Assembly: GCF_018446385.1 (NCBI RefSeq)
Contig: NC_055989.1
Span: 135,125,004-135,189,003, forward strand
Direction: 5' to 3'
Length of the DNA: 64,000 bases
DNA from: Zingiber officinale
Taxonomy: Eukaryota; Streptophyta; Magnoliopsida; Zingiberales; Zingiberaceae
Translations under genes and position numbers: made by a program
Shown: positions 13,201-37,164 of the stretch, in pieces
Layout of the letters: every line of letters starts with the position of its first letter
Position numbering within the stretch: the first letter of the stretch is position 1
Notes under the pieces: model-generated
What the model saw: only the letters and a program-made list of their open reading frames with translations
Told to the model about the DNA's origin: nothing
Database searches by the model: none

Positions 13201-14505
13201 TGACCTGAGGGATTTTGCACCAACAAACATGTCATATATATTTTGAAAAAATGAAAATTGTATCGACGGTTATTAAATAATATTCTCACGGACCTGATCA
13301 CAAACTGTATCTACAATTTGGACTACATCGATGACATCTTCAGGATTTTGCGATAGAATACACTCATCACGTAGTCTCACCATATCATCCTAGAAAAAAC
13401 AAACATGTTAAAAAAATTGTAAAAAATAATTATGCCAAGTTAAGAACAAATTCACTAAATAAGGTCATAACATACATATGCAGTTTTTGCCGTGTCCTCA
13501 ATCCACCATTTCTTCGAGCTATAATGAGTTTCATTAAAGACAGTAATCCGATCTTTTCTTTGTGACTGATCGGTCTAAAAAAAAATAATGTGTTAATATT
13601 TTAATCAACAAACAATATAAGATAACTATAAAATTAACACTTACACCGTCATAACTATACTGGATGAATGATTTAGAACCTCCACGATGGTTATATGGGA
13701 GTTTTCCTTGATTTTCGACATTTATTGCAGATCGTTTCTACAATACAAAATTTTGTATAAACAAAACAATAGTGATGGAACAAATAATTAAAATTTTATA
13801 TTAAATAAGACATTTGTTATAAAATGAGTTACCTGAAATGCTTCAGATTCAAACAGAGCACATATGTAGTCCCAATCATCTTGAGTCTCACAGAACTCAA
13901 GAGGAATATGTTGTCGACGCTCAGCGGGAGGAAGGTGCGATAGCTTCTTATAATGGTTATGCATTTTAGATCTATTGTCTCTATATCGTGCACTCATCAA
14001 TCGGTCGGTCTCCTTCATGACCGACGATGAGCCCTCCTGAAAACTTATATCAAAAGCAGCTTGAAAAAAGGTTAGTAATAAAGGAGTCGTTATAAATATG
14101 TTGAATTACTTATACTTACTGATATTCGATCGTATATCATCCTTTTATTCTCAGCGGGGATGTGTTTCCAACTCTTAGCTTGTAATGGTGCAAACTTCTT
14201 TACCGAGAGGCCTAACTCGGTCATAAATGAAGCTGCATTAGGGCCAATGAGATGCCCATCGCTCTGACGGAAAGTAACGGGCAATCTACCCCGAGCACTG
14301 ATCTGGCGTCGCAGCCGATCAGAATGTGTGCCACGTGTCTCCCTACGTAGCGGTCGGCCTGTAAATGCAATAGTGTTAACAATCAACAGATGAAATATCT
14401 AAATAAAATTTTTCTAAATTAAATACAAAACAACTAACCACTGGAAGAACTATTATCTATAGGTGTCTCCAAAACTGGTAAATGTTCAATCCTCTTAGGC
14501 GGCAT
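4279..14505 (-). CDS. CACTA accessory protein, Transposase_24 (Ptta/En/Spm) type
   Basis: Seven exons with GT-AG junctions join in frame: 14439-14505, 14120-14358, 13833-14036, 13645-13737, 13476-13574, 13294-13389 and 4279-4608. They give 375 residues starting MPPKRIEHLPVLETP and ending LALMLWTFG. Recognisable family blocks are the GRPLRRETRG start of the domain, SWKHIPAENKRMIYDRIS, SARYRDNRSKMHNHYKKL, DDWDYICALFESEAFQ, VFNETHYSSKKWWIEDTAK and a C-terminal coiled coil (RERLQSTQDELANTKIQLAN). In En/Spm this class of protein binds subterminal repeats and assists excision. The last intron (4609-13293) contains an antisense IQD-gene fragment and a complete LTR retrotransposon, yet I see no stop or frameshift in the exons. 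Whether this ~8.7-kb intron is spliced is unknown. Confidence 0.75.
4930..5421 (+). pseudogene. Captured IQD (IQ67-domain) gene fragment
   Basis: The frame from about 4938 reads KEEIIARIQQRERAAVKRER then AMAYAFSHQ, the segment after the IQ67 domain in plant IQD calmodulin-binding proteins. Near 5190 the bases encode N-W-G-W-S-W-V-D-K-W-I-A-A if one base is skipped at the GGGATGG, and continue AQAWETRPSAQ. This matches the IQD block around W-(G/S)-W-x-W-L-(E/D)-R-W. A Lys/Pro-rich tail runs to the stop at 5419-5421. The sequence between the two blocks is not coding in any one frame, and a 21-bp tandem duplication (4977-5018) repeats ERAAVKR. It is antisense within an intron of the CACTA accessory gene, so it looks like a host fragment carried by the transposon rather than a working gene. 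Confidence 0.7.
5422..5952. other. CACTA intron between IQD fragment and LTR element
   Basis: AT-rich sequence with no recognisable coding. It may include captured 3' sequence of the IQD gene. It ends at the AACAT target duplication (5948-5952) of the LTR retrotransposon. Confidence 0.5.
6480..6762. repeat. Paired GGATCGATCC palindromes in the LTR
   Basis: At least four copies of a dyad form a 12-bp arm CTGGATCGATCC, a 2-base spacer AC and the complementary arm; each half is itself palindromic. Variants with CGATCGATCG and TGATCGATCA also pair. The reading frames this creates (Trp-Ile-Asp-Pro or Asp-Arg-Ser repeats) are a by-product. The same array is at about 12138-12424 in the other LTR. 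Confidence 0.9.
7095..7436. repeat. Hairpin minisatellite with covarying arms
   Basis: About thirteen ~26-base units alternate between CCTAG-cttcactca-CTAGG and CCTGG-cttcactca-CCAGG. The loop is constant, and the left arm changes together with the right arm so that the 5-bp stem is always complementary. The counterpart array is at about 12766-13090 in the other LTR. Confidence 0.9.
7566..7579 (-). promoter_or_regulatory. Polypurine tract
   Basis: Minus-strand AAAAAGGGGGAGAT lies directly before the 3' LTR start TGTTGG. This is the usual copia-type plus-strand priming site. Confidence 0.9.
7580..9900. other. Non-coding internal region of the LTR element
   Basis: This lies downstream of gag on the minus strand, where pol would be in an autonomous element. 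I see no protease, integrase or reverse-transcriptase motif. Several CTCCCCCT purine-tract-like blocks lie at 7690-7830. A further cluster of AATCGATT and GGATCGATC dyads sits at about 8408-8594. The remainder is AT-rich without open frames of note. Confidence 0.7.
8408..8594. repeat. Internal cluster of ATCGAT dyads
   Basis: GGATCGATTGG, CCAATCGATTG, GAATCGATCCA paired with TGATCGATTC, GGATCGATCGA with TGATCGATCC, and GAATCGATCCA-TGG-ATCGATTC occur in a row. The dyad arms vary but stay complementary, as in the LTR, so this structure is not limited to the LTRs. Confidence 0.8.
9901..11535 (-). CDS. Gag-like protein with two CCHC zinc knuckles
   Basis: 544 residues starting MKKLEQILQVQDFIKL. 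The N-terminal region has the copia Gag layout (FDSWKSRIENFL near 41-52, KDLWSKLAKLHEE near 119-131). An acidic Ser/Glu linker (145-180) follows. Two zinc knuckles fit CX2CX4HX4C: CFECREHGHYKSKC at 210-223 and CFSCNQKGHYRSQC at 257-270. A probable short coiled coil is near 385-415 and the C-terminal half is very basic. The stop comes right after NRVWVPRSIFSTP, where related polyproteins lead towards protease, so pol is absent. The start lies ~60 bases inside the PBS. The frame is intact, so the protein may still be made and package its own RNA. Confidence 0.88.
   Translation of the reverse strand: MKKLEQILQVQDFIKLNFKMQFQDGLGFDTRVAPPYTSTSFDSWKSRIENFLMMEIEQWFALTEGFEAPTNSKGKVLKKSKWSPELVQRCEANNKVTKLLVNLLPSTILCKIGEFEDAKDLWSKLAKLHEEIPSTVPNQEVSKEGDSLEQDQEEDSEVERCSTSEEEEEEASTSTSQEKSNGEASTSKTSATPTSKGINISINNKNHIICFECREHGHYKSKCPKLAKKKGQVAKKGKVKPKETIPNTKKSKEHIICFSCNQKGHYRSQCPKGKKRVKAQGGTSQGGASKVKKKVTFIEPTPLHYGKKHDRSNFYHFNAIYHKNRKHEGFKEKHVALHAKTITPRVRNVGKSLGNNSKDFRYKPRNQNAHGLNEKPNSKDLMIENQVLRSRLDKMEKTLKRMENILKGQNEQNLGLGKSKPSNSHRGLGYKPKAKKDVPSYHRVPYSYGTNPRFGGQVKNTREVIPKSIFATKVTKTSKKSKKVTNKVTREAIPRVDLENVTKASKKPNKVTRKVSREVIPSEYLEHARSTNRVWVPRSIFSTP
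11597..11608 (-). promoter_or_regulatory. Primer-binding site (initiator Met-tRNA)
   Basis: Minus-strand TGGTATCAGAGC, two bases inside the 5' LTR boundary, is the standard 12-base complement to the 3' end of plant initiator methionine tRNA used by copia elements. Confidence 0.93.
11611..13225 (-). repeat. 5' LTR (1615 bp)
   Basis: Near-identical to the 3' LTR. Differences include a shorter G run, one extra 10-bp GGCGTTGCTT unit near 11680-11700, and about six scattered substitutions. It carries the same three dyad zones at about 12138-12424, 12465-12750 and 12766-13090. Any promoter would drive minus-strand transcription from here, but no TATA box stands out. Confidence 0.95.
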
Positions 14506-14617
14506 GGCTGTCACATATTCATCATATATAGATCAACAAATATGCATCAACATATATAGATATCTACAAGTAATGAATTAAAAATAAAGGAAAACATATT
14601 TACCATGTTCATAAAAA

Positions 14618-16625
14618 TTATTCACCACTATCATCTGAAAGAGATAATTGATCATCTATGTCACTATCAATTTCAGTATCTTCATCCTCATCGTTAAGAA
14701 AACTTTGAGCATCCCTAGCTAGCTCCACTTGTGCATTTGGCATATTTATATGTTGATGCTCAACATCTAATCTACAAAGTTGGGATATCTCTAATTCTTC
14801 ACCAACTACTAAAGTTGCTTCATTAGAAGAATTATCTTGGTTAGTCTCAATATTGAAATTATTTCCGGATTTAATTTCTTCTGATACTTCATCAACTTCA
14901 GTTACTTCATATATTTCTCGGTGTTGATCTTTTGCACTACCTTCCAATGACCTCCACGCTTTATATCATTTAAATAATAAACTTGGTTTGCTTGGTTGGC
15001 CAAAATGAATGGGTCATCAACGTACCATGTTTTAGAAGTGTCAATAGATAACAGACCAAACTCTTCAACTATTGATTTTTGTTTCGGATTATATTGGAAC
15101 CATTCACACCAAAATAATTGTACTTTATATCTGAAAGAGTAAAATAGCTGAACAACATCCTTCAACACTCTAAAAAAATCTAAATTGTCACCATCATCGG
15201 ATGATGCTACGCTAACCCCGCTATTCTGAGTAGTTCTGCGAGCATCACGAGATCTTGTATGGTATCGAATACCATTTACAATACAGGCATCATACAGTTG
15301 AACTTCAACATCAGGTCTCATTGCTAAATAATATAACTCGTTTGTGATTTCTGAATTTGTTAAATTCTTTAATTTTATCATTCTATCCCTAAACCGTTGT
15401 GGAAAATCTCGCTCATGGTATTGGAGAAGTTGATTTGAATGAACTTTATATGACAGAAGTTGTAGATGTTCACTGTAGAAACAAATAATTATTTTACAAT
15501 TGTATAATGAAATATAAACAATAAAATTACATAATGTAAACACTTACTTCCTATATTGGTTAACTTCCTTACAATTGTTGAGAATATACCAATGTGCTTT
15601 CTTATACAAAGTCAAAGGCAATTTCAGATTATGTGGATTGCCAAATACTCTTGTTTGTTGTGAGAAAACACTTAAGTTGCATGTTACTGGTCGAACATCT
15701 TGGTTTCGTTCCGGCCTACTAAATCTTGTCTCAATTTGACTCATATATAAGGAACTGAAAGTCAATGCCTCATTTACAATATACCCTTCTGCAATAGATC
15801 CTTCAGGCATTGCTTTATTACGAACATACCTTTTTAGTCTGCCCAAATATCGTTCAAAAGGATACATCCATCGTGAAGAAACAGGTCCAGCTAACATAGC
15901 TTCACGAGGTAAATGAACTGCCAAATGAACCATAATGTCAAAAAATGCTGGAGGAAATATTTGTTCCATCTTACATAATATGAAGATTATTTCCTCCTCC
16001 ATTTTACATAAGTCCGCTAAGTGTAAAGTTCTTGCAGTTAGCTTTTTGAAAAAATCACATAACTCAATTAGTGTGCGGCATATGTCTTTTGGAAAGAATT
16101 TTCGTACGACCACTGGAAGTATTCTTTGCAACAAAACATGGTAATCATGTGATTTTAGTCCATGTAACTTTCCATCATTTGCATTCACGTTTCTAGATAT
16201 ATTAGCAGCATATCCATCAGGAAACTTCACGGATTTTAAAAATTGACAAAATTCATGTCTTTCTTCTAATGTCAATGTGTAACTTGCATATGGTTTACTA
16301 AATTTGTCTCCAACTTTCTTTAAATGCAATTCACTTCTAATTCCCATATCCTGCAAATCTAACCTTGCTTTAAATGTATCCTTTGATTTTCCATCTATAT
16401 TAAATAATGTGCCAACCAAAGTATCGCAGATGTTTTTTTCTATGTGCATCACATCTAAATTGTGTCTTAACTTTAAATCTGGCCAATACTTTAACTCAAA
16501 AAATATAGACTTTTTTTACCCAATTGGTTTCATCCAAAGATCGCTGTCGCTTTTTACTTAATGTAGGATCTGTCACTTGGAGATCAGCACTACATTTGTG
16601 AGCCAGCTCAGAAACTGCACTTTCT
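14618..16625 (-). pseudogene. CACTA catalytic transposase (Transposase_21/DUF4218/DUF4216), truncated and frameshifted
   Basis: Minus-strand coding blocks include DPTLSKKRQRSLDETNW, then after a one-base shift near 16515 FELKYWPDLKLRHNLDVMHI and EKNICDTLVGTLFNIDGKSK. These are the end of the Transposase_21 domain. DUF4218 follows (FPPAFFDIMVHLAVHLPREA, SRWMYPFERYLGRLKRYVRN, GSIAEGYIVNEALTF). An intron (15473-15547) leads to DUF4216 (YNPKQKSIVEEFGLLSIDTS, DDPFILANQANQVYYLND, HWKVVQK). A second shift near 14935 separates this from the acidic C-terminal tail ending at 14618. The N-terminal transposase-associated region is missing beyond 16625. Two frameshifts plus truncation make it non-functional. 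Confidence 0.9.
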
Positions 16626-18999: not shown

Positions 19000-20298
19000 T
19001 CAGATGTAGATACGTTCCCACATACAACGTCAAATTTGATATATACCCAAATTTAAATGAAAATATTTAACTTATACTAATAAGCAAAGTAACACATGAT
19101 GGAGCTGTATTTTTTTAATTAACATCAAATATTTAATTATATATATATATATGAAAATATTTAACTTATACAAAGTAACACATGATGGAGCCATATTTTT
19201 TTAATTAACATAACTTACTTTGATTTCATAAAAATTATTTTAATCAACTATCTCTAAAGAAGTTGCTGCTATGGTAAATAATAATAACAGGGACAGGAGC
19301 TTTGTGGGTAGAACTTAAGGTAAAAATAAATTGCACCAAAAGTAAATTAAATTGAATATAAGATGTGTATATAATTATTAGACGTTCAGGCACCGACCCA
19401 GGAATAATGAAATATTTAACAACATGGAAAAAAAGATTTAAATAAATAGGCAAATGGTGGTTGACTTCTCCTAAGCACATATGAATTGTTTTTTTTAAGA
19501 ATTAGTGAAATATTTAAATGCATCCAAAACAAATAAAGTTATTTCATCTCATATCACATAAATTTATTAGCTAATTAGTTTTTACTTATTTGAATAATTT
19601 AAAAGAACCAGATAGTCAATAAGCACTATAAAAAAGTTCCTCCAAGTCTTTCCCAAATGCTTCGTCTTGGATGAGTTCGGCTTAGTTTGCGGAAGAATCT
19701 GACCTTTGTCGGTGAGTTGCTTTCTCCGATTATGCCCCTTTTTTGAGTCAATTGGAAAAAATCGAACTTGATTGTAGTTGTCTACGTTTGGTGTGAAACA
19801 ATGCAGAAATAGGGAGCAAAATTGTTTTTTTTTCTTGTTTGCTACAAAATTCCGAGCTTTTGTTGGAGATATCTTACTCATCCGCTTGTGCTCGTCTGCA
19901 GGGGAACTGCCGGCGAGTTTCACCACTTGTTCATCTTTTCTGTGGTACAGATTCAGATCTGGTGTTTTGGAAAAGCTTCGGTATCTAGGGGTTTCTACGT
20001 GTGGCGTGAAGATTAATTCTCGAACTGGATGATTAGTGTATTTGGAGCAACTGGAGTAAGCCCCAGACCTCAGCGCTTTCTCCGGGTCGATTTCACGCTG
20101 AATTCCTTATCTACTGCTAAAAGGAGTAATTTTGCTTTCGCTGCCGCACTTCTTCTTTGCTCATTAGTTTCTTCTCGTATTCCGAATCTTTCTTAATGTT
20201 GCGGTAGGACTTTTGCTGGATGAAGTCAAAGGCTGCTTAGTATCTTGGATTGATAACGGTATATCTGGTCTATTGACTATTAGTTGGTCAGTAGAAGT
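19000..20298. other. Upstream region and 5' UTR of the GT14 gene
   Basis: At 19058-19240 an AT-rich ~100-base unit containing AAGTAACACATGATGGAGC is tandemly repeated twice. From about 19630 the base composition is more balanced and could include transcribed 5' UTR, possibly with an intron. No coding frame is supported. An in-frame TAG at 20281-20283 lies 15 bases before the chosen ATG. Confidence 0.5.
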
Positions 20299-23200
20299 AT
20301 GAGGAAGAATGGTGGGTCTCATTATGCAAAACCATTCAGTGATAGAAGATGGCTTCTTCCATTCTTTGCAAGCTTGCTCGTCTCATTAACTCTTTTCATG
20401 GCAACGGTTCTTGGGTTGTTTTCCTCTCAGAATTCTTGGGAGTCATTGTCTTTGGACGTGATCACTTTTACTAGTCATGATGATTCAGAGGGATACTCTA
20501 TAGGACTAGATAGAAATCAGCCAGTAACTCTAGAAGAACAAGAAGCTCCACGGCTGGCTTATTTAATAACTGGAACAAAAGGTGACAGTCAAAGAATGAG
20601 GAGAACTTTGCAGGCAATATACCATCCGCGAAATCAGTATATTCTGCACTTGGACCTCGAGGCACCTCCACGGGAGAGGATAGATTTGACTACGTATGTC
20701 AAGGGTGATCCCTTGTTCAGTGAAGTTGAGAATGTGCGTGTGATTGCAAAAGCTAACTTGGTGACATACAAGGGCCCAACCATGATTGCTTGCACCCTGC
20801 ATGCAATTTCCATTCTGTTGAAGGAGAAACTAACATGGGACTGGTTTATAAACCTGAGTGCCTCAGATTATCCTCTTATGCCACAAGATGGTCAGTGCTT
20901 TTTTGAATTTGCTATTTTATGTTCCATTTCTTATGTTTACATCACTTGGATATATATGTCCAATTAAACTATTGGTGAACATTGTTCATGATCATATTTG
21001 AAAATTGATTAGGTTACGCCTATAAAAAAAGAATAAAGTGATATAATATATCTCACTGCAACAACAACCAGCTGTAGTTTCAACTATTTTGGACTTCATC
21101 TTGCCATTGTACTTTAGGGAGGGTCATACTGTCAGTAGTAGCTTTGAATCAACGATCATAAAACTTTTGGTGCTGCCTGTGCTAACATATTTTAGTAGCC
21201 AAGCAAGTCCAAAATGTACCAAGCTAATCCTTCTTTTCCTTAATTGTTGTTTCTGGTGTAATTGAAAGGGCTTGGAAGGACTGTTTAGCAAAGATAGATC
21301 TCACTCCTATCCCTAACAGTTAATGGCACTTCTATTTTCTCTGTATGGGTTAGGCTGATGTACCCTTTCAGAGGCCCACTAGACCACATTTGTATGGCAT
21401 CTATGTGGAGCATGGACCTGCAGTAAATAAGCCTCAAGATAGCACACCACATCATGGATATCGAGCAAGCCCCCTTTTAGGTTGTTATGAGCAGAGTACA
21501 AATCACTATTGGCAAAGTGCTGCTCCTCGGCTTCCCAAGAGTTTTGTTGACATTTATTTGTTTAGGGTTCCAAACAAGTGAAAATTGATCATTATCCCTA
21601 AGTAAGGCTTGTATGAAAATTAGTTTTGTAAAAGAGCTTCACAAAAGGAATATAATTGGATGAACTTGTCACTTGAATAACAAACTAGCGTCTATTAGAA
21701 GGCACTCTAACTAGTTGGATTTCATCCTTCTAAACAATAGGAGTTGGAAATCTTCAGCCATTTTTTTATCCTAGATGAGGACTAGAATTAAGATTTTAAT
21801 TTAGTAATTCTTACATGATCTTCTTTTGCATGATATAATTGAGAACTTATTTTGGTTAAAGCTAGCAGCTAAATTCAATGCCCAATAATTTAGTAACTTC
21901 ATAAATAATCATAAATTTTGAACCCATTTGAAAGGCTATAAGGGGTAGGCAGAGACCAACTATGGAGTTCCTAACGACTAACTTACGCTAAATGGTATTG
22001 GTTCTAAACGTTAAGGTGACTAATTGACGCTAGCTTTGCTTGCCACATGTGAACTGCAATAATGTCAAAGCAAAATATATAAAAGCTAACTAAATTATCT
22101 AAATGCATACCTTTAAATAAACTCCACTAGTATTATGCATAAAACCCCACCAATGACCTGGAGGTTAAAAACTTCAGCGGTGAGTGTAACAATGCAAAGT
22201 GGGTACAAGAAAGAAGTACATGATATAAAATATCTCATGAAATAATCCTATGAATAATAAATAATCAAGGTTATTATGTTCCACCTAGAAATGCATCATA
22301 ATTATATATGGAATATATAGGATGAATGACCTGCAAAAGACTCAGTAAGGATGCATTGTATATAATAATAAATGAACGCTCATCCACTTGTAATAAAATG
22401 CATCATGTGTATGCACATATACATACATAAAAGGTGAACGACTCACAATTCACCCAATATACACCTCATCTAAAAATAGAATGAGCGACATACAATCCAC
22501 CTAATAAGAAAATCCTCTCATATAAAATGACTGAAACTTACCCATGCACAAAAAGACTCAAGAGTCCTTTATGTCTATAATATAAATAAATAATTTGTTT
22601 TGTTAATTTAATACAAGCAGTTACCCAACTCCTGTAGAATGCAGAGCTAAAGCTCTACACTACATATAGTCACGCAGCTCTTTCGGAAAATGGATCCAAA
22701 GCTTTATACTACAAGTAATCACACAGTTCTTTTAGAGGATAGAGTCGAAGCTCTAAATTATAAGTAGTCACGCAGCTCTTTTAGAGGGTGAAGCCGAAGA
22801 TCTAAACTATAAATAGTCACGCAACTCTTTTAGAGAGCAGAGTTGAAACTCTATATTATAAGTAGTCACGCAATTCTTTAGAGGGTGGTGCCAAAGCTCT
22901 ATATTACAAGTAGTTTATTCAATATTATACTAATTCAATTAAAATTTATCTATATCTCAAATTTACAGTGTTATAAAGTGATTCCTGTTCTTTTAAAACA
23001 CTTTCCTAAGATTTCCATTTATTATTATTATTTTAGTAACAATGGTACATAAGTGCAAAGAAGCAAGAATATCATAAAAGGACATGATAGGTATCCAAGG
23101 CAAGAGTGTAGAATGATTTTTAAAATAAAACAAATCAGTAGTCCAACAAATTTATCTTTAACCTCAGTTTTATTATGCATTAGCTTCTGTTGAAATTTTT

Positions 23201-26200
23201 TTCCCTTAAAACAACATATTTGGTTAGTCTTGAAATTATAATTTGTAAATTTAAATCATGCGCAAGGAAAATGTCAAATAGAATCAAGTTGGAAAAATCC
23301 ACCTCAATTGAAGAAATCCATATCCTCATCAAGCACCCACAAAGATCCTTCATGCTCTCTTAACAAATAGATCCACAAGTTATAAAACAATATAAGCATA
23401 GATTCAACTTTACAATGTCAAAAACAAGAACCATGATAAAGGGCTTACTTTGTAACTGCACTTCTAGAAGAGGTAAATTAAACCATTTCCCCAATTCTTG
23501 AAAGTCATAGTATATTATCCCCTAGAAGTGAAATGAATCAAGTTAGGATAGATGGAAATCACAAATGCTTCTTCAACCAGGAGCTTCCAATAAGGGCAGC
23601 AATTGCTTCTACCAAAAAGAGAGGAGCGGTCCTTAAATATATAAACCCCTTGAAAATCCCAAACCATGTGAACCAAGAATATAATTGAACCAAACCCAAA
23701 GCATTTAATTTAACCTTTGAAATCCTAAACCATTTGAACCAAAAATACAATTGAACCAAACTCAAATCTTCTAATTTGGTCTTGGAAACTCTTATCCATG
23801 TGAACCAAAAATATAACTGAACAAATCCCAAATTATCTAATTCAGTTCAGCCCTAACTTATGCAAATCAACCCAAATCAATTAATTTTGTTCAACTCCAA
23901 CTTATCCAATTTAATTTGAATTCTCAATCTATCCTTTTAGATTATAGGATTTTTATGGCTTTAGACTAGTGGCCCCCAAGTGATCTAGGATGAAATATCC
24001 CTCGTATAAACAAAAACTATCTTATAAAGATGAATTCAATGGGGTGTATCATCCATCATTGCTTAAAAGCATGGTTTCATACCCCCAGGACGTAGCGCAA
24101 ATGGTGGACGCATGGCATCTCTGGCGTAATGACCAGGGGTCGATTCTCAGGAACTAACGACTTGGGGTTTACCCCACCATGTGCTTATGGCCTGTGTACC
24201 TGCATGTACCTCCCTCCATATTCGGAGGGCCGACACTAGGGGGCCGCTAAGGTAGCGGATCTACCTTTTTTTTAAAAGCATGGTTTCATGTGTCGGTTGG
24301 TGTCGGTCACTACTGCTAAAAAATATTGTTCTGGTTCTCAACCAATACTGTGTTACACAATTTCAACTGTACCAACCAAGACAAGGTATGTCTTGGCTGA
24401 TATCATCGCTGGAATAGGTGTTGGATCTGGTGGTGCAATCTGAGCATGAGCAAAATGACAGTATAACACTGCTTTAGCGAAGTCAAGGCTAGAGTTGGAC
24501 TCTATTTCTTTAAGACGAATTTGCCCCGCACATGGTGCTCACGGAACATGGCAATCATCTCCCAAGATACAACTTTATCTTGCAATAACAGCACTGCAAA
24601 TCGTAAGACCTCCGAACTGAAAAAGCTTCTTGAACTCCCCAAATGCAAGTATGGAATGCAATGCTTGCTTTGCTTTTAAATGGAATGAATGAAATGAGAA
24701 ATGAGAGATTTTATTTATACCAAATGAAGGGATAGAAAAACCTCTTGGTTCAATTAGATCTCATCCATCCAACTTGAATTGGATAATTTAGATCGCATCA
24801 TTTCCCAAGGAACACAATGCTTCTTCATTTGGAGGCCTTCCATTTGAAATCAATGGTTGAGATTGAGCCATTGGCACTTATGCCTTCTCATTTGGATGAA
24901 TATGATTTGTCCATCTTAATCTGACGATCCAAATTAAGCCATGTCACCAATCCATGTGATTTCTCATTCACACACTATTTGGTTCAAACTGGAAACAACC
25001 TCTTGCAAAAAGCAGGATAAGGCTGCGTACAATGGATCCTTCCCCGGGACTCCGCATGGCGGGAGCTTCGTGCACTGGGCTGCCCTTTGCACAATTTGGT
25101 TCAAAATCAATTTTCCAACAATAGGAAGATGTCTTTTCTTGACTCATTCTTAATCCATCTTTTGAGTACTTCGAGGAGATGAAGGCCTAGAAGAGCAAGG
25201 GGAGGAAAGGAGGAGAAACATCAGGAAATAGTACTAATTGGACAACTCACACTAAGGGTTATTCCCCCCACATAGCCTCACAAGATGGACTAGGATAAAC
25301 AAGGCAGACTTGGCCATAATAAATAGTTAACAAACTCCGTCCAAGTAACAACAATACTGCCACAGTTCACTGCTACAACTTGTAAGTGGTCTGCGCTGGA
25401 ATCCTTACATTGCAGTGGAAGATCCATCAGATTCATTAATCTACCAGATTCACCTTTTCAGACCAACTATTCTACTTATGAGCTACAAAATAATTTATGA
25501 CTTCTTTGTTGAAAGGCACAGATAGGTATTATTAATTTTGCCATTTCACATGTACAGAAAATATGTTTTCCATTGTTCATCATGGTCCCGTTCTCCAGAA
25601 AAAGAACTGGAGATGAAAATCAAACCGTTTCATGACCTGGTGCTCTCCAGCAAATACTGCCACTAAAGGTTTCAATTGTATTCCAGCTCAAGTCTGCCCA
25701 ACTTGAAGGCCTTTTCGCTGAACTTGGTCAGTTTTGATCAACCATGGTAGGGATTATACATAGGAACTTGTATTCCTATAAACACTCCAAATGACAGGGA
25801 ATGCAAATGTTAGGCTATAGAGACATCAAACAAAAGCATCATTACCACTTTTTGGGTATGTTGAAAACGATCAAATTTTGTTCCTCTACACTCTAAATGG
25901 CAATGCAAATGTTAGGCTATAGAGAAAGCTTGCAGAGCAAGGTGGCCGCTTCTTGGGTCTGTTGAAAACTACGGCTTAGTTCCTTGTGTTGTTTCTGTTT
26001 TGGGGCTTGCCTGGAAAAGGAACTCTCTTTCCTATGGACAAGGAACTATTTTTCACTTCAGTTCTTTTGAAGAAGAAATTAGATTTAGCCTTGCATCATT
26101 AAAATACCGAACATATAAGCTTCAAGTTATTTCCTTTTAGAAATAGAGAATAAATATTTCTAGATTACCATTTATTTGCATAGCAAGATATGTTTGAACA

Positions 26201-28887
26201 TGCTCATTGCTAGTTTTTTTTTATCCTTTGTGCTTACCTTTCTATGGTATCCATGCAGATATACTTAATGTTTTATCTTCGCTGCCTAGAAATCTCAATT
26301 TTATTGAGCACTCACCCATTGCTGGTTGGAAACTGTGAGTCAAGATGATTTCTTTTTGGAATTTAATCTATTACTCAATTCACAATATTAACATGAAATT
26401 AATCACCAGGACACAGAGGGCAAGACCAATAATTGTTGATCCAGGCCTTTATTTGTCCAAAAAATTTGACGTTTTCACTACCACTGAACATCGGGAATTG
26501 CCTACTACTTTAAAATTGTACACTGGTAAGCTATTTTACATCTATTATTCCTTCAGCTATTATCTGTATCTTCATTGTACTAAAGCTGATGTCTCTATGA
26601 AATTGAACATGTATAAGGAGACAATTGGTGATCTTTTCTGTTTTTTGGTCAATAACCAAAATTTACTTTTGAGGCACGTTCAAAGGACCTTTCAATGATA
26701 TCTAAGAGCAGAATCTTAGCTAATACTCTTGTAATTTGAGCAGGCTCCAGCTAGTATACATAATGTAATTTGATAATAGATTTTAGCAATGCTCTTTCAG
26801 ATCACCATCTAATTACTACCCATCTAGTGTTTATTTAGTAAGAAAGCATCTCTGTCATGAGAAATCTCCTGAGTGGCGAGATGATTGGCTACACTTTACT
26901 TTTAGGAACTTTGCTGCTCTGTACTAGATAAGTTTTGTTTTTTCCTCCTTTTGTTCAAGCAAGAAGTCTCACACAATAATGAGGCCCTATATACTGTTGG
27001 TGTAGCGGAGGCCGGCAAGAGAAGGGGGGGGGGAATCGTCTGCACAAATTAAAACTACCCTCCTCGGATTTTCCAACTCGAAAGTGCAATAGCAATAATA
27101 AAAGTAACTTAAAACAATAAAGCTAAACAGAGGGACAGAGAAGACCGGGAGTTAGCCTGGTTGCAACCAAGAAGGTTGTTAATCCAGGGCGATGAAAAGC
27201 GCTGAAGGCGGAGAAGCCTTTTACACTCTTACAGCTCAGAACTATTGCTAGGAATTGATTACAGAGTCGATGGAACAGTTGATATCTAATTCCTAGTTCC
27301 AGAGGCCTTTATATAGCCGCTGGAAATCCTATCTCGGATGTCCGAGGCGCCTCCAATAGGGGTCTAAGGCGCCTCCATCGAGAAAGTGGATAAAACTTTA
27401 TTCAAAAGCCCAACGTTCACTTCTGCCAGGTCCGAGGCGCCTCCAACAGGCATTGAAGGCGCCTCCAAGATGGCTGGCAGCTTTTTCCAGCTTGCTTGCT
27501 TCTTTGCTTCGTCTTTCGAAGTCCCGTTCTTTTGGATAATTCCGGTCAACCGAAATAGGGCTCACCGGAACTCAATTTTCGGCCTTCTCCTCGAGCAGTC
27601 TTCCTCCCGGCTTAACGTCCCTCGAACGCCGCGCACGTTCTTCTCGCCCACCGGTGTATTCTTCCGCAGCTCTCTCGTCCTTCAGACGCACCGAGTCTGT
27701 CGGCTCCCTTCCCGTGTCGTCCTTCTCGCTAGCTGCGTCTTCCGTTCGACTTCCTGCGCTCCTAAGCTCCTGCACACTCAGACACAGGGGTCAAACACAA
27801 AGCAGAACCTAACTAGCTTGGTTGATCACATCAAAATAACCACGGGGTTTAACATATACTACAGCGAAATCCAGCTGTAACCTACATATTTTGATCACTT
27901 ACTAATATGGCAGTGGCATTGAATGCAAATCAGACTAATGGTGTTGTATAATATTCTTTGACAAGTACTAAAAACAGCATACTGATCTAGACGTGTAACA
28001 ACTGATCTGTCTTGCATTTGGAAAACCTGTCATCTTCCGTTTTGAAGTGGTATGTCTTCTGAGATTGATAGTAGTTTTTCCTCGATAGCAACAATGTGGA
28101 CTTCGAACCCAGTGGAGCCCCATCATGCTGAACCTGCAATAGAATCAGTTATGTAGACTGAGCAACACCCTTTTTTCTTTACTATTCATTCTCCCAGAAA
28201 ACCCTGCTTATCTTCTACTAGCTGCTGTTTTTATTCAATTGACTACTACATTATACATTAACTAATTTTTAGTGAGCCAAGACTTGGTTTGTCTTTTTAT
28301 TGTACTAATTCATGTTATTCATAGGTTCGGCATGGGTGATGCTGACTCGAAGCTTCCTTGAGTACTGTATATGGGGGTGGGAAAACCTTCCTCGAACTGT
28401 TCTGATGTACTACGTAAATTTCATCTCCTCGCCTGAAGGCTACTTCCACACAGTCATCTGCAATTCTGATGAGTTCAAAAACACCTCCATAAGCCATGAC
28501 CTACACTTTATTAATTGGGACAACCCTCCGAAGCAACACCCACTACTCCTTGCATCCAAAGACTTCGACAGAATGGTAAAAAGCGGTATGCCCTTCGCTA
28601 GGAAATTTGCAAAAGGGGACCCAGTTTTGGATAAAATTGACCGGGAACTATTGGGGCGATCCAACGGACAAGTCACGCCTGGTGGATGGTGCAATCAGAG
28701 ATCAGATGGAGCAGAACAATGCTCCTCAAGGTCTGATGATTCTAAATTTCAGCCAGGACCAGGTGCCGAAAGGCTACAACAACTGATGAAGAAGCTCATG
28801 TCCGAAGCATTCCGCAACGGAAGCTGCTCCTCCTTGCAGTATGATCAGACTAAGAGAGATTGGATCACATCTAGAAGAACAAATTGA
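20299..28887 (+). CDS. Beta-glucuronosyltransferase, GT14 family (GlcAT14-like)
   Basis: Four exons join in frame: 20299-20890, 26259-26334, 26410-26525 and 28325-28887, all with GT-AG introns, giving 448 residues. A type II signal anchor (LLPFFASLLVSLTLFMATVL, ~residues 19-38) indicates a Golgi enzyme. GT14 core-2/I-branching blocks follow: PRLAYLITGTKGDSQRMRRT, YILHLDLEAPPRERIDL, WDWFINLSASDYPLMPQDD, LPRNLNFIEHSPIAGWK, RPIIVDPGLY, GSAWVMLTRSFLEYCIWGWE, NLPRTVLMYYVNFISSPEGY and FHTVICNSDEF. Plant family members add glucuronic acid to galactan side chains of arabinogalactan proteins. The chosen start follows an in-frame stop; a TTG further upstream is not needed. Intron 1 is 5.4 kb and repeat-laden. 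The exons show no damage. Confidence 0.93.
22637..22915. repeat. Five-copy ~57-bp minisatellite
   Basis: Units share AAGCTCTA-(c/a)TAcAAGTAGTCACGCAGCTCTTTTAGAGG with about 10-20 percent divergence. Each unit contains GAGCTC-like and AGAGCTT dyads. It lies in intron 1 of the GT14 gene. Confidence 0.8.
23640..23850. repeat. Three-copy ~65-bp minisatellite
   Basis: Units share AACCATGTGAACCAA-AATATAATTGAACCAAACCCAAA followed by a TAATTTAACCTT-like stretch. The repeat creates a minus-strand frame with VQLYFWFTW-like repeats, which is not a gene. Confidence 0.75.
24081..24273 (+). mobile_element. Full-length tRNA-derived SINE with 16-bp TSD
   Basis: The 193-bp insert is bounded by perfect direct repeats AAAAGCATGGTTTCAT (24065-24080 and 24274-24289). 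It begins ACCCCCAGGACGTAGCGCAAATGG, where TAGCGCAAATGG fits a pol III A box, followed by GGGGTCGATTCTC as B box. It ends in CTACC plus a T run, as in plant SINEs with T-rich tails. Confidence 0.9.
24989..25093 (+). mobile_element. 5'-truncated Au-type SINE
   Basis: The body AACAACCTCTTGCAAAAAGC, then GGCTGCGTACAATGGATCC, CCCCGGGACTCCGCATGGCG and TTCGTGCACTGGGCTGCCCT is the 3' half of the Au SINE family; the promoter half is absent. The flanks are direct repeats ATTTGGTTCAAA (24977-24988, 25094-25105), showing that the insertion itself was truncated. Confidence 0.87.
26526..28324 (+). other. Intron 3 of the GT14 gene
   Basis: A 1.8-kb intron from GTAAGC to CATAG. Nearly half of it is the solo LTR at 26995-27854; the rest has no recognised content. 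Confidence 0.8.
26995..27854 (-). mobile_element. Solo LTR with TATAC target duplication
   Basis: 860 bp beginning TGTTGGTGTAGC and ending GGGGTTTAACA (TG...CA), flanked by TATAC at 26990-26994 and 27855-27859. No internal region, PBS or PPT is present, so it is a solo LTR. Like the LTRs at 5953 and 11611 it has a G-run followed by GAATCGTCT/GAATAGCTC soon after the plus-strand start, which suggests a related family in the same orientation. It carries paired GAGGCGCCTC dyads at about 27340-27470. Confidence 0.85.
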
Positions 28888-30435: not shown

Positions 30436-33400
30436 TCACTGTTCACCAGAAAGAAGCCATCTCAAGTACTCAACTCCATTATCAAGTATTGATACTTGCT
30501 CAGGTGAAACAATCCTCTTCCTGTAGAAAGATCCGATAGAAGGACACTTTCTTTTCCGTCCACCTCGTGGCCGTGACTGCCACTGCTCGTCGATTTCTAG
30601 GAAGTCACCCTGCAACAAGAAGCTCAAAGCAACTCAGAATTCATGCAAACCTAGATTAAATATTTGTTCAGATTCAAACAAAATTCAAAATTGAATTTGC
30701 TAACATTTCAGATCACCATGTCAAGTCTAGTAGATAAATCTTAAGACTAAACACTTACTTGGATATAACTGTGCACACCAGATTTTTCATGGTTATCCCT
30801 GACATGCTTGTAGGGAAATTTCTTCCCACATTCAGAAAATCTGCATGCAAATGGACGAAGATTTTGATGGACTGCTTTTATGTGCTGTCTGAGATTTGAT
30901 ACCTGCAAGGCGCAAAAACTATGCTTTATAATTACTAAATAGAAGATTGATTGCTTATCCAGAAATAAATTAAGTGATGCATATGAGAAGAAAAAAAGGG
31001 TGATCTTCCAATAAATTGTCCTTATCAACAAGTGTGCATTTATGCAATTAATAATGAATGTAGTAAAAGGCCATTTGCACATCTATTTTAACTGCCTAGA
31101 CGCTTCAAGCCTCTGTTAAAAAAACTCAAATTACCTTTGATCCATTCATATCTGATAATTGTCTTTGCCTAGATGTTTTAAGCTTCTGTTAAAAAGGCTC
31201 AAATTAGACATCTCCATGATCTTTACCTTTGATCCATTCATATTCAGTAATTGTCTCCTAGTTCAAGAACTGCTTCTAATACAGGAAAATCAACCTCAAT
31301 AACAGTTTCAGCATGTCTTAGTCTCTTGCAAAGAGGTTAAGCTTCGAACAATGTCCTAACCAAATTCCTGATGGCACACACAATTGGGATGCAAACATAT
31401 TATGGTTTTATTTGGTCATGATTTGAACCTCATCCTATTAACTGAAAAAGTGCTACTAGATTGCTTCCGAATAGCAATTAAGCTTTGACGGCCTGAGAGA
31501 CAGAAAATCGATAACTACACAAAATTCATGTCTTACATTTGAAAAGGTGCGTTCACAACCTTCCAAGTTACATTTTGTCCTCTCAGTCACCTCACTTGCT
31601 TCATGCATGTGCTCATGTCGTTTAATATTCTTCTTCAGATGTTTTGTTCCACAAATCACACAATCAACATAAAGGTGAGAAGTTTTGATATGTGCTTTAA
31701 GGCATTCTGCATTTGTGAATGTCTTCATACATCCAGGTTCATTGCAAACGACTTCCACATATTCCAATTTAACTGTAACAAAAACTTGGTTTAGCTCGCA
31801 ATGATTAAATTAGAATATAAAGAATTATAAGAATCACAAAAAGCAATACTGAAGTAGAAAAATTGGTAAATATGAACTATTAAAAAAAATAATGCAGCAT
31901 AATAAATAATAAGAATGCACATCAAGTGCAAAGAAATCTTTAGGATAAACCAAAAAGTAACCAGAACATGATCGATAAGATGCCCAAAGTGAGAAAAATG
32001 TTTGCACTCAAAACAAAATATGACAGGATAGAAACAAACAACAATAATGCTCTCTTTCCTTCAGAAATATTCTTTTTTGGGGGAAGGAGGAACTCAAGTA
32101 AACGGGCAAGATCCCCAAAATGTCCCAAAAGCATGCAGTGCCCTTATAGCGATCTTAGAAAATATGCCAACCCACTAAAGAACTAGATAAAGCCTTGAAG
32201 TGGCAAGATAAGAGAGTCAACAGGAAAGTCTGCGTAGGGTAAAGCAAAAATAACAATATTTGTACTAAGAATGCACTGTGATGTATAATATGAATAAAAT
32301 ACTACATTGCATGAAAATGAATATGAATAAATGTCATTCTGTATGAATGTCATCCACATACTATTTGCTAAAGTACAGCAATCAATTGACCATAGTTTGG
32401 AACTACTCATGGGTGGTATCCCTGTACTCCCCTAAAATGCAATAGAGTGGTACCATGTACCACATGAATACCAAAGAAAGATTGAGTTCATCTTCACCAT
32501 TGCAGTCAATAAATAGTTGAGGAGAGAAATCAAGTGTGAGTGTGTGTGTAGCTGGTAAAGGTCCGGCAAGGATCTTATATGTTATATGAGTCACCAACAA
32601 CCAAATAATATTTGTAAATAACATATCCACAACAAATGACTCAACATTCAATATAGTTCGCCTAGTGTTACCTTGTCTTATGCCCGCCAGATCCTAACCA
32701 GAGGTAAAGGATCCTCTAATGTGTAGTTTTTAATGTGTACCAAAACTAGTGCAATATAACACAACAATATGACATACAACAAAATAATCAAGCTGTCAGA
32801 TGTAACTATGAGACATGATATGAATTCAACAAATAAACAAGTCAAATTAACTCGGATACATATCTGCATAAATATCTATTTGCATGGCAGTTAATATGAT
32901 GTATGAATAAAGAATCTACTAGAAGCCAATAGGATAATAGAAGCAAAACAAGCAGAGTTAATAAGATAATGTTGAAATTCCATGGCAAGAATTAGTACAC
33001 CAAATCCACCCTAACCTCACTTAAATTATAACCAATCCAACCCAACCTCATGGCTTAACATCCAAGATACAACCATCACACTAGAAAAATCTCATAGCCT
33101 CATACAACACCAACATCTGCTGGAAGGGAATAAGAGGAAACAGGCACCGCGACGTCATGCATATCCGGCGGTGACATAGGGTGAAGGAAGGGTGCCAAGT
33201 GGCAGAGCTTGCTGGCGGCAAGCTGTGTCAATGGTGTAATTGGTGACAGTACCAGGCTACACACAGACAAGCAGTGATGTCGGGGTGAGCTGTGGCAACA
33301 TCAAGCACCCTTTTCACAAAGATTAAGGGGACAAAAGAGATATGGACCAAGGGAAATGGAAGAGGATTGCAATCACGTATGGAAAAGAAAAAGAAATGGA

Positions 33401-36400
33401 TTTTAGTTGTCCACTTAACCCAAGCAACTGAAGTGAACCAAATTTGTTCAATTGTGGTTTAACCAGAATTTAACCAAATCGAATATGGTCTGAGCTTAAA
33501 ACTCACCCAAAGCAGATCCACCTAATAGAACCCTCAAATGGACAATCTAATACCTATTTTGAACCCAAATTAGTTCCAAATCCCTCAAAATCAACATTAG
33601 CACTAACTGGTTACGCCTTAATTACATCTAATTAACCCTAGCTAACCTCTAATCTCCTATTAGGCTTAATAAAACTTCCATACATAAGAGAAAATAAACA
33701 TAAGAGAAATTTAAAACAAATTTACATACTACCTTTTATGTTGACGAAAGGACAATACTTATCTATGTTTCATAATACATCATTTCCATACTAGGAAAAA
33801 CATGAAATTGATTTCTTTACAGCTTTCGCTCACCTAAACAAGGCATGAATAATAAATCTCCTGCTCCACAGGATATTCCAAGGGATATGTGAAATTTCAC
33901 AGACTACCATGTGCCAAGGGAAATGGGAAATTATAACCATCTTGTTTCAATTGTTGAGAACCCCGCAATCAACGTCATCTCATTTTCTATATACAGATTC
34001 TACACAAGATTTCTCATTCTTTTGAAACCAATTTTCTGCTTTGGTCAGGTTTTCCAAATTTGGCAGCATTTATTATTTCTTTTTTTTAGAACATGGTCAG
34101 TTTTTTTTTTGTTCCAAAATTTGAAACTCGGAAAATGAAAACAAACCATTGAGGAAACCAAAATTTGAGAAAATCTAAGATCTGCTTGAGTTGGTTAGGT
34201 GTTTTTGACATCCTTGAGAACACTTTATATGATTATTTTAGAAAACAGCCTACAGAACTATGCCAACAGTTATAATGATTTAAAGGAGAGCATTTTACCA
34301 TGTGAATCTTCATGCTTCTTCAATTTCGAGGGATACTTGAATATCTTCCCACATCCAGGTTCACCACAAACATACTGTTGTTGACCTTCACAAGGAGACT
34401 CATCTTCATGAATTTCTCTCACATGCCTCTTTATGTTGGCCTTGAATCCAAACTTGCAGTTACAATTACTAACAGGGCAAGCAAAGAGTTTTCCTTGGTG
34501 AGTCAATGAATGGCGAGTTAAATGGTCCTTCCTTTTAAAGCTGGCATGACAGTCATCCACTGAACAGGTAAAAGGCCTCTGCATCGAAATCAAAGATATA
34601 TGAGACACAAGAATCAGTCGGTGATAAAACAACCAGCACCAAGATCATGCATTGGAAAGGACAATGAGAACAACTTTATGAATTAAAGTTAATGTTAACT
34701 GTGATAAGAACCTGGAAATAAACTCCCTATTTCTTATCTATGACTCATAAAACAGGAAACCTTTACCATTCTCACTTTTAGATAGGAACTCTCATAGTAA
34801 CATCATTTAACTTTAAAAGTGATCCAAAACGATAAAAAACCACAGATAAAGAAACTAAATCAAAACAAACTTGAAAGACAACTACGGAAGTATATCAAAC
34901 AAGTAAATACAAAACTACCTTTTACAAATAGATGTGTGAAAGCTGAAGCAAAATAGATAAAGACAGACCTCAAAGAAAGTGCGTGATTGAGGCTTTCTTG
35001 TGGAGCTTCACAGGAGGTGTACCCATCCTGATACTAGTCCGCTCAAGATAAACATTGTAGCCCCTTTGCATTTTGGAGTTCGTCACATGGGATCCAATGC
35101 TTCACGCATCATATCATTATCCAAGATGGAATTTTTTTCAAAATGCTTTATGCCTGCAAATGTCCCTCATAAAAATGTGTAAATGGTTTATCATTTACCA
35201 AATAATATGACATTGTATTTAAATGCCCAAAAGTAGCATATTCAACCTCAATCTACAAGAAATTTCATTGGTTAACATATAACTCTAATCAGTTTTTTAA
35301 TTATACAGAGATAATTATAATCAACAATCAAGATAATGACTACTTTAAAGTACTAAGCTGAACCAGCAATTAACAATATCTTGTCATCAAAATTGTATTG
35401 CAAGTGACCAAATGAAAATCTATTGTTTTCTAACCTCAAGGAAAATGCGTGATCGAGGCTTTCTTGTGGAGCTTCACAGGAGGTTTTCCCATCCTGATAC
35501 TAGTCCACTCAAGAAAAAACATTGTAGCCCCTTTGCATTTTGGAGTTCAACACATGGGATCCAATGCTTCACGCATCACATCATTATCCCACAAGGAAAT
35601 TTGTTTCACAATGCTTTATGCCTGCAAATAGCCTTCATAAAATTGGCAGATGTACAATCATTTACCAAATAATATGACATTCTGTTTAAATGTCCGAATG
35701 TAGCAATGCTCAATGTCAATCTAAGAATTCCCAACTAAAGATTAATATATAATCAGTTTTTTTATTAACACTTAAACAGGTAAATAGTCATAATCAATAG
35801 TCAAGAAATAAGTATATTGAAGAAATACTTAGCTGAGGCGGCAGTTAACAATATGTTGTCATCAAAATAATATCAGAAGTAACCAAATGAAAATCCATTG
35901 TTTCCTTAACATATAGAATTTGTGATTTATGTTTGATTCATATTGTATGTGTTAGTCAAATAATTTCAAGAAATAGGCTGAAAAAAAAGGGAAATAAATA
36001 ACTATTCCAATCATAGATATTTGACACAGTTGAACGAACAAGATGTATGATACCCGATATAACCAATTATCTATTGAAAACAGCGAAGGACTAAACAATC
36101 AAATGCCTTAAGAAAAAGTCTGACATATAAGATATCAAATAATTGATGTCATAGATAATCAATGAAAAGATGAAGAAAACCAGTGAAACTACAAAGGATA
36201 TTTAAATAAAACATATAGTGGATATTGCAGTAACCTCAATAGAGTGACTTTGAATATGCTGCTTCAGATGAGATGGTTTGAGGAAGCTTGCACCACACTC
36301 TTTGCAAGTATGTTGCACCCTGCCATCCAGCATATTTGCATGATCGACTTCATCTAACTGTGCATTGTCGAACTCATCCTAGATGAGTTTCAAGAGATAA

Positions 36401-37164
36401 GGAGGAAATTTTAATACTTATTTAAGATATAAAATGACTCGATTGGATTAATTTGGACAATTCAACATCTAAAAAATAATATAGTGCCCTAACAGTACGT
36501 CCACTCAATAAATTTAAGAATAGACTTATGAGTAGAATATTATAACAACAAATAACAAGTTGTATAACTATATGAGCTCGGTTATATGGATATTATCCAT
36601 CATTGCTCTCCATGTAGTGAATCCTCTAAGTACTAAATAATTTAAAGACTAGTTGGCACAGCTCTCCTGATTTAGGCTAGTTGCATTGATTTCTTTGAGG
36701 TCCTAGAAATGAACTTGTGTTTTTTCATACGATTTATTTATTTTTAAATTGCATCGAAGCAGCCAGTGCATTAAATGAAGATCTTATTAACATTATGTAA
36801 ACCTAAGGCAATGACAAGATATCCTTTTTCCTCAAAGTTCCAACTCTTATCCAACTAGCTTTATAATTATTCCCTTTTAGCAAGAACCTCTTTTTTTTCA
36901 GCTTTACTGGAGGATGCCAACTGAAGTAAGCAACAAAAAGCAAAAGCCTCTTGTCATAGGTAATTGAGAAGGTAAAATTGGTTTTACCTTATGGTTGGTT
37001 AGAATGTGTGAGCGCAAAAGCTTTTTCTTGGACCTGCAAATTCCACAAAACTGACAATAGTAGCGCCTGATGTCCCTGGAACGTGGTTTCTGGTTCATGT
37101 CTACCCCCTCATTGACATCAGCTGCAGTCCCTTCAACCGAGGCATGTGATTTAGCGGCCATCAT
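30436..37164 (-). CDS. TFIIIA: Transcription factor IIIA, nine C2H2 zinc fingers
   Basis: Six productive coding exons join in frame: 36988-37164, 36235-36378, 34299-34578, 31537-31772, 30759-30902 and 30436-30609, giving 384 residues. Nine fingers are visible in order, beginning [160 protein letters not shown] and [21 protein letters not shown] basic tail ([10 protein letters not shown]) follows. TFIIIA binds the 5S rRNA gene and 5S rRNA. Between exons 2 and 3 lie two tandem 5S-rRNA-mimic exons whose inclusion would stop translation, the known plant autoregulatory device. The start could be either of two adjacent ATGs. Confidence 0.95.
31773..34298 (-). other. Large intron of TFIIIA
   Basis: A 2.5-kb GT-AG intron between the exon encoding fingers 3-5 and the exon encoding fingers 6-8. 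It is AT-rich apart from a GC-richer patch near 33140-33300. No gene or clear mobile element was recognised. Confidence 0.75.
34969..35153 (-). promoter_or_regulatory. P5SM (5S rRNA mimic) alternative exon, copy nearest exon 3
   Basis: 185-nt exon with acceptor TTTGCAG and donor GAG|GTCTGT on the minus strand. It contains 5S-rRNA-like blocks in order: GCATTGGATCCCATG, GAACTCC, GGACTAGTATCAGGATGGG and CCTCCTGTGAAG. A closing helix pairs TGCGTGA with TCACGCA. It opens GCA TAA in the frame of exon 2, so inclusion gives an immediate stop. In plants, ribosomal protein L5 binding to this mimic is reported to favour skipping and hence productive TFIIIA mRNA. Confidence 0.88.
35435..35621 (-). promoter_or_regulatory. 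P5SM (5S rRNA mimic) alternative exon, copy nearest exon 2
   Basis: 187-nt exon with acceptor TTTGCAG and donor GAG|GTTAGA. It has the same 5S-like blocks as the other copy (TTGGATCCCATG, GAACTCC, ATCAGGATGGG, CCTCCTGTGAAG). The closing helix is slightly longer (ATGCGTGA with TCACGCAT). It also starts GCA TAA. Both copies keep splice sites and mimic pairing, so both may be functional. Confidence 0.88.
35911..36234 (-). other. TFIIIA intron upstream of the P5SM pair
   Basis: AT-rich intron sequence following coding exon 2 on the minus strand; nothing else recognised. Confidence 0.7.

Follow-up and report, generated by a model that had tools for sequence, protein, structure and literature searches.

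Why would a plant TFIIIA gene carry its 5S rRNA mimic (P5SM) exon twice, and are both copies genuine, preserved and able to act together? This question is raised by a gene in a 64,000-nt stretch of the ginger (Zingiber officinale) genome, hereafter the window, for which the original prediction had proposed two such exons in tandem. The P5SM exon of plant TFIIIA was reportedly described by Fu et al. and by Hammond et al. in 2009, and among structured plant exons that respond to a protein it is a leading example.

In the suicide exon model, as set out in the available text of PMC4538838, an endogenous splice factor keeps the P5SM exon included by default, and L5 displaces this factor, which leads to skipping. 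A PTC, NMD and control by L5 are stated in the available part of PMC5568362. The ginger exons share with the family described there their site after the first two zinc-finger exons and the premature stop (PMC5568362, PMC6164485, both in the parts available), together with 5S-like blocks, a conserved core and TFIIIA as the host gene. They differ in number, given that one copy is described for the family whereas the ginger gene has two in tandem; the window gene thereby departs from the single-copy state, which is usual for a P5SM and not strictly defining. The claim that the exon is otherwise single-copy agrees with the available portions of PMC6164485, PMC12857756, PMC4374538, PMC5423905, PMC5568362, PMC5972288, PMC10952736 and PMC4538838. 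No description of a tandem P5SM was found in the literature searched, which comprised titles and the starts of abstracts together with portions of the papers just named, with the founding 2009 papers outside its scope.

Gene structure and copy number

A complete TFIIIA reading frame was found on the minus strand of the window, where six coding exons encode an intact 384-aa C2H2 zinc-finger protein (Table 1). The protein has Pfam zf-C2H2 matches and is 100% identical to the public entry 'transcription factor IIIA-like [Zingiber officinale]', and its PDB matches include the TFIIIA structures 8ffz, 1tf6 and 1tf3, with other zinc-finger chains ranking first. As had been predicted, two exons of 187 nt (A) and 185 nt (B) lie between coding exons 2 and 3, following the exons that encode zinc fingers 1 and 2, and the coordinates agree. 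The claim that both keep an acceptor and a donor was borne out by the sequence, from which we read an AG acceptor and a GT donor on each: TTTGCAG/GCATAA and TTGAG/GTTAGA for A, and TTGAG/GTCTGT with the same acceptor for B (slashes mark exon boundaries). Predicted pairing of the two donors with U1, using what we take to be the U1 sequence, is alike, at -5.7 kcal/mol for A and -5.5 kcal/mol for B. Both strands of the predicted closing helix (P1) are present in each exon, and the four 5S-like blocks, left unnamed in the original prediction, could be identified in both as GGATCCCAT, GAACTCC, AGGATGGG and ACCTCCTG.

Table 1. Coding exons, mimic exons, closing-helix strands and introns of the TFIIIA gene, in window positions
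Feature	Position	Strand	Length (nt)	Sequence detail
TFIIIA coding exon 1	36988..37164	-	177	
TFIIIA coding exon 2	36235..36378	-	144	end ATT GAG/GTTACT
Intron before exon A	35622..36234	-	613	last ~285 nt are part of the duplicated unit
P5SM exon A	35435..35621	-	187	start GCA TAA (in-frame stop); donor GAG/GTTAGA at duplication junction
P1 helix of exon A, 5' strand	35569..35575	-		TGCGTGA
P1 helix of exon A, 3' strand	35446..35452	-		TCACGCA
Intron separating A and B	35154..35434	-	281	diverged second copy of the upstream-intron end
P5SM exon B	34969..35153	-	185	start GCA TAA (in-frame stop); donor GAG/GTCTGT
P1 helix of exon B, 5' strand	35102..35108	-		TGCGTGA
P1 helix of exon B, 3' strand	34980..34986	-		TCACGCA
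Intron after exon B	34579..34968	-	390	
TFIIIA coding exon 3	34299..34578	-	280	
TFIIIA coding exon 4	31537..31772	-	236	
TFIIIA coding exon 5	30759..30902	-	144	
TFIIIA coding exon 6, including stop	30436..30609	-	174	

The ginger genome (3.09 Gb, 211 contigs) was searched at the DNA level with window positions 34962-35147, which represent most of exon B. The query matched at least six places: two on the window contig (C4), two on C3, one on C12 and one on C11. TFIIIA genes were found by means of this mimic-exon query, and any that lack such an exon would escape it. C3 is the counterpart of C4, with 97.6% identity over 5 kb, and the 938-bp tandem region is identical at 930/938 positions (99.1%, 8 mismatches, 0 gaps). 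A second TFIIIA gene, on C12 and C11 (L008 and L009), has the same gene structure and the same mimic core as the window gene, but carries one P5SM exon, of 180 nt, giving copy numbers of two per gene on C4 and C3 and one per gene on C12 and C11. Between the C12 and window proteins, identity is 72% and dS is 0.84. Reading frames are intact in 4/4 of these genes (C4, C3, C12 and C11), with the C3 frame pieced from two overlapping loci. Judging from sequence identity and from an assembly that we take to be haplotype-resolved, C3/C4 and C11/C12 would be haplotype pairs.

An assembly artefact was considered as the source of the pair and judged unlikely. The tandem is present on C3 too, and the intron part shared by A and B differs by 22.8%, so the pair is not one copy assembled twice. 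Each exon shows a difference between the two contigs: in exon A, a C to A change on C3 (L007 2953-3139) falls in the conserved block GGGGCTACAATG, while in exon B a T to C change on C4 at column 115, absent from C3, breaks a helix pair.

Several further features of these loci were observed. An intronic motif, ATTATTTGKTAARTGAT, lies ~35-55 nt 5' of the mimic acceptor (window 35622-35741 and 35154-35273, minus strand) and is common to A, B and both paralog contigs (L008, L009) despite the diverged intron around it; it is possibly a branch site or another splicing element. Coding exon 3 of the paralog (L008 3482-3815) is 54 nt longer than that at window 34299-34578 (334 vs 280 nt), and the extra 18 aa, which lie between fingers, resemble a partial repeat of the neighbouring linker. 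The public model ZIOFF_012151 (P0007, C3 contig) skips coding exon 2 and reads intron as coding, and ZIOFF_044392 (P0032, C11 contig) begins within the intron that follows the mimic exon. Both are unlike the intact frames found here, so the annotation of the two loci needs care.

Resemblance of the exons to 5S rRNA

When aligned locally to the 5S rRNA of ginger itself (from L015), A scored 46.5, B 55.0 and the C12 exon 56.0. With 1000 dinucleotide shuffles of each, mean scores were 19.0-19.9 and maxima were 34 (A), 36 (B) and 39.5 (C12), corresponding to z of 8.2, 10.2 and 9.6, and 0/1000 shuffles reached the observed score in each case. By this measure, A and B both have the sequence similarity to 5S rRNA that characterises a P5SM. 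A covariance model built solely from the two single-copy paralog exons (C12 and C11) also matched both window exons, at 158.4 bits for A and 158.8 bits for B, as well as their C3 counterparts, at 156.7 and 163.9 bits. Against ginger 5S loci, the same model gave seven weak matches (10.8-16.6 bits, E 0.04-0.84), 6/7 of which fall at model positions 45/46-164/165, the structured core. Taken together, sequence, position, stop codon and model score suggest that membership of A and B in the P5SM family is well supported.

The description of the exons as 5S-like stood in part, holding for the sequence blocks and a proposed three-way junction but failing for the whole 5S model. An Rfam scan of the whole window returned 0 matches, so that RF00001 (5S) lies below its gathering threshold, and a scan of 34500-36300 at E<=10 gave no RF00001 and five chance-level matches to unrelated families. 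We therefore limit the term 5S-like to the blocks and the proposed junction. The RF00001 gathering score expected of a 5S rRNA gene or pseudogene is not reached by the mimic exons.

The RNAalifold consensus is a three-way junction, in which the closing helix of TGCGTGA with TCACGCA is joined by two arms, one running from GGATCCCAT to GAACTCC and the other from AGGATGGG to ACCTCCT. Its 38 pairs are formed in 97.8% of 228 cells (six rows), a level attained by 2/500 shuffles, and 33-46% of pairs are formed when the structure is slid, a control that flatters the structure because the junction was derived from the same six rows. Covariation is thin, since A, B and the paralog provide just three lineages: one pair is changed on both sides, and as many were seen in 279/500 shuffles. 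Minimum-free-energy folding was unremarkable (z of -1.87 for A, -0.02 for B and -1.13 for the paralog), and the predicted energies do not support exon B. In the predicted ensemble of the A-B pre-mRNA, the closing helix reaches a probability of up to 0.366 in A and at most 0.022 in B. A swapped closing helix, pairing the 5' strand of A with the 3' strand of B, was rejected at a probability of at most 0.025, about that of B's local helix and far under A's.

According to the available part of a review (PMC6164485), the regions of 5S that L5 binds are helix II and loop C. In the arm from GGATCCCAT to GAACTCC, the six exons vary only at columns 69, 72 and 73, which are already non-identical to 5S.

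Splicing outcomes and a proposed serial switch

Conceptual splicing with A, B or A+B included yields a protein of 108 aa, while skipping of both yields 384 aa. The same in-frame stop stands at the start of A and B, so any inclusion truncates the protein, with a premature stop in each of the three forms. Mutually exclusive coding exons were excluded as an explanation, given that every inclusion form ends at the same codon. Restoration of the frame by A+B (187+185 = 372, divisible by 3) was likewise excluded, as the stop at the exon's second codon comes before it could take effect. Tandemly duplicated cassette exons or mutually exclusive exons form a general class of head-to-tail exon duplication inside an intron. 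The ginger exons differ from this class in the in-frame stop at the start of each, so the duplicates give no alternative protein sequence.

In the inclusion form, the longest downstream ATG frame of the tandem gene is 169 aa, and the single-exon C12 gene has a downstream frame of 247 aa with the start MSRHV. With frames of these two lengths, the paralogs may differ in a product like TFIIIA-7ZF, a downstream protein reported to be made from the inclusion form in other plants (PMC6164485, available part).

We propose that the pair forms a serial poison-exon switch, made of two L5-responsive exons that would both have to be skipped for productive mRNA, and this is the reading towards which we lean. 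The ~470-nt unit would have been duplicated head to tail in one of the two ginger TFIIIA genes found, after the gene pair split. Both copies would be recognised as exons, and by default A, B or both would be included, giving an unproductive mRNA for the 108-aa truncation that would presumably enter NMD. Free ribosomal protein L5 binding a mimic would cause skipping of that mimic exon, and full-length TFIIIA mRNA would arise solely when A and B are both skipped. Serial exons would in this way multiply their skipping probabilities, with less leak at low L5 and a modestly steeper, right-shifted response.

The expected size of these effects was calculated for two independent serial exons, with the productive fraction taken as the product of the two skipping fractions. 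The effective Hill coefficient was 1.19 vs 1.0 for a single exon, and half-response came at 2.41-fold higher L5. For independent exons, a 10% leak of a single exon becomes 1% with two. Since the calculated steepening is only modest, the larger expected effect is a lower leak, and not graded or sharply cooperative sensing. On this model, we favour a tighter, higher-threshold gate over a graded or strongly cooperative sensor. An AND-type response would need no true cooperativity, as two independent serial exons would suffice.

A comparable arrangement has been engineered. Skipping of a single suicide exon is leaky, and layered elements cut the leak, as stated in the available text of PMC4538838. 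The HyP5SM cassette described there resembles the proposed switch in having a poison exon that is retained by default and skipped on L5, and in layering controls against leak, although the ginger side of this likeness is presumed. It differs in being engineered, with a single exon and an inducible promoter, whereas ginger would layer two exons naturally. The copy number of a riboregulatory exon matters for 5S rRNA/L5 feedback and also for plant synthetic biology, in which leak from suicide exons is a recognised limitation (PMC4538838, available text).

More tentatively, and with some doubt on our part, ginger may have evolved and long kept a natural AND gate, with the one-exon and two-exon paralogs responding to L5 at low and high thresholds. 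The gate would then have persisted over a substantial fraction of the TFIIIA gene pair's age, and the paralogs would form low-threshold and high-threshold arms of the feedback loop from L5 to 5S rRNA. The duplication and a single-copy paralog in one nucleus offer a ready-made experiment on how copy number affects threshold, leak and steepness.

Origin of the duplication and signs of constraint on each copy

The repeat unit of ~470 nt consists of the last ~285 nt of the intron and the mimic exon, duplicated head to tail. TRF reported it as a repeat at 34975-35913 with a period of 467, 2.0 copies and 80% matches. The junction of the duplication coincides with the exon A donor: GTTAAGGAAAC, which lies mid-intron at the start of the unit, is joined in its second copy to the exon end, where its GT is the donor (GAG/GTTAGAAAAC). 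Meanwhile, the donor GAG/GTCTGT is common to exon B and the single-copy paralog. The GT shared at the join is seen in the sequence, and it may have guided the duplication event. A junction placed on the donor GT offers a one-step route to a second exon with both splice signals.

The duplicated intron part differs between A and B at 62/272 positions, with 22 gap columns (K2P 0.275), or about one-third of the gene-pair dS. This level of divergence suggests that the exon duplication probably postdates the split of the TFIIIA gene pair, yet is old. At what we take to be usual plant rates, its age would be some tens of millions of years. An old duplication predicts the tandem pair in other gingers; a search of viral contigs with two P5SM patterns, made for relatives outside ginger, gave 0 matches for each.

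The original prediction held that the mimic exons look better conserved than the intron between them, which would suggest selection on both. Compared with this intron part, the whole exon differs between A and B at 16/185 positions with 2 gap columns (Fisher P = 7e-5), and the core, from P1 to P1', at 7/129 with 1 gap column (Fisher P = 7e-6), so that exon divergence is below that of the intron; the exon edges differ at 7/45 (5') and 2/11 (3') positions. Substitutions were polarised with the single-copy paralog as outgroup, which placed 7 of the 16 exon substitutions on A and 7 on B, with 2 assignable to neither. Core substitutions numbered 3 for A and 4 for B, and one of those in B (column 115) is confined to C4. 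The neutral expectation at the intron rate is 17.7 core substitutions per copy (Poisson P 2e-5 for A and 1e-4 for B), and even with raw intron divergence set to its lower 95% limit the expectation is 11.6 (P 0.003 and 0.01). After the exon duplication the core rate is 0.205 of the intron rate, and against the paralog it is 0.17-0.18 of dS; these values are similar and thus give no sign of relaxed constraint, although with intron and dS as two different neutral yardsticks the comparison is a consistency argument and not a test. A shift of substitutions toward unpaired sites was not significant (2/7 paired, P = 0.10). Read from sequence divergence, these results are signs of purifying selection on each copy, in line with what had been predicted.

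The same results bear on the alternative that one copy alone is the working switch, the other being a passenger that is constitutively included or skipped. Either copy could be suspected: exon A has a donor made by the junction (GTTAGA, as against the older GTCTGT in B and the paralog) and a lower 5S alignment score than B or the paralog exon, while the predicted folding of exon B does not surpass that of shuffles, and on one contig this exon carries a change that breaks a helix. We nevertheless consider this unlikely, given that each core has 3 or 4 substitutions where 17.7 are expected, that the polarised exon substitutions are equal in number, and that the covariance model scores and predicted U1 pairing of the two donors are close.

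It appears improbable that the duplication is a matter of dosage, mainly lowering the ceiling of TFIIIA from this gene while leaving the L5 response unchanged. Ginger has at least two TFIIIA genes, one of which may be tuned down, and adding a poison exon reduces output at every L5 level in the product model, but the reading frames of both TFIIIA genes are intact on each of their contigs. Gene conversion between close tandem repeats is common, and similarity within the repeat is highest in the exon core, but conversion confined to the core, in place of selection on both copies, seems very doubtful, because A-B conversion cannot yield a core that evolves at much the same slow rate when compared with the single-copy paralog, the exon edges beside it are not homogenised, and 17/18 of the A/B differing columns are the same on both contigs (C4 and C3), which gives no sign of recent conversion.

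Elsewhere in the window, two frames on the plus strand at 20284-28887 correspond to the two ends of a Core-2/I-branching enzyme (PF02485), its start and its finish, and may belong to a single neighbouring gene with introns. Frames for a zinc knuckle, DUF4216, DUF4218 and a GAG-pre-integrase were observed at 9901-16452 and 60452-61081, which we take to be likely transposon remnants. Finally, two largely matching 82/112-bp tandem repeat arrays lie 5.66 kb apart, at 7088-7431 and 12748-13091, and are perhaps the paired ends of one inserted element.
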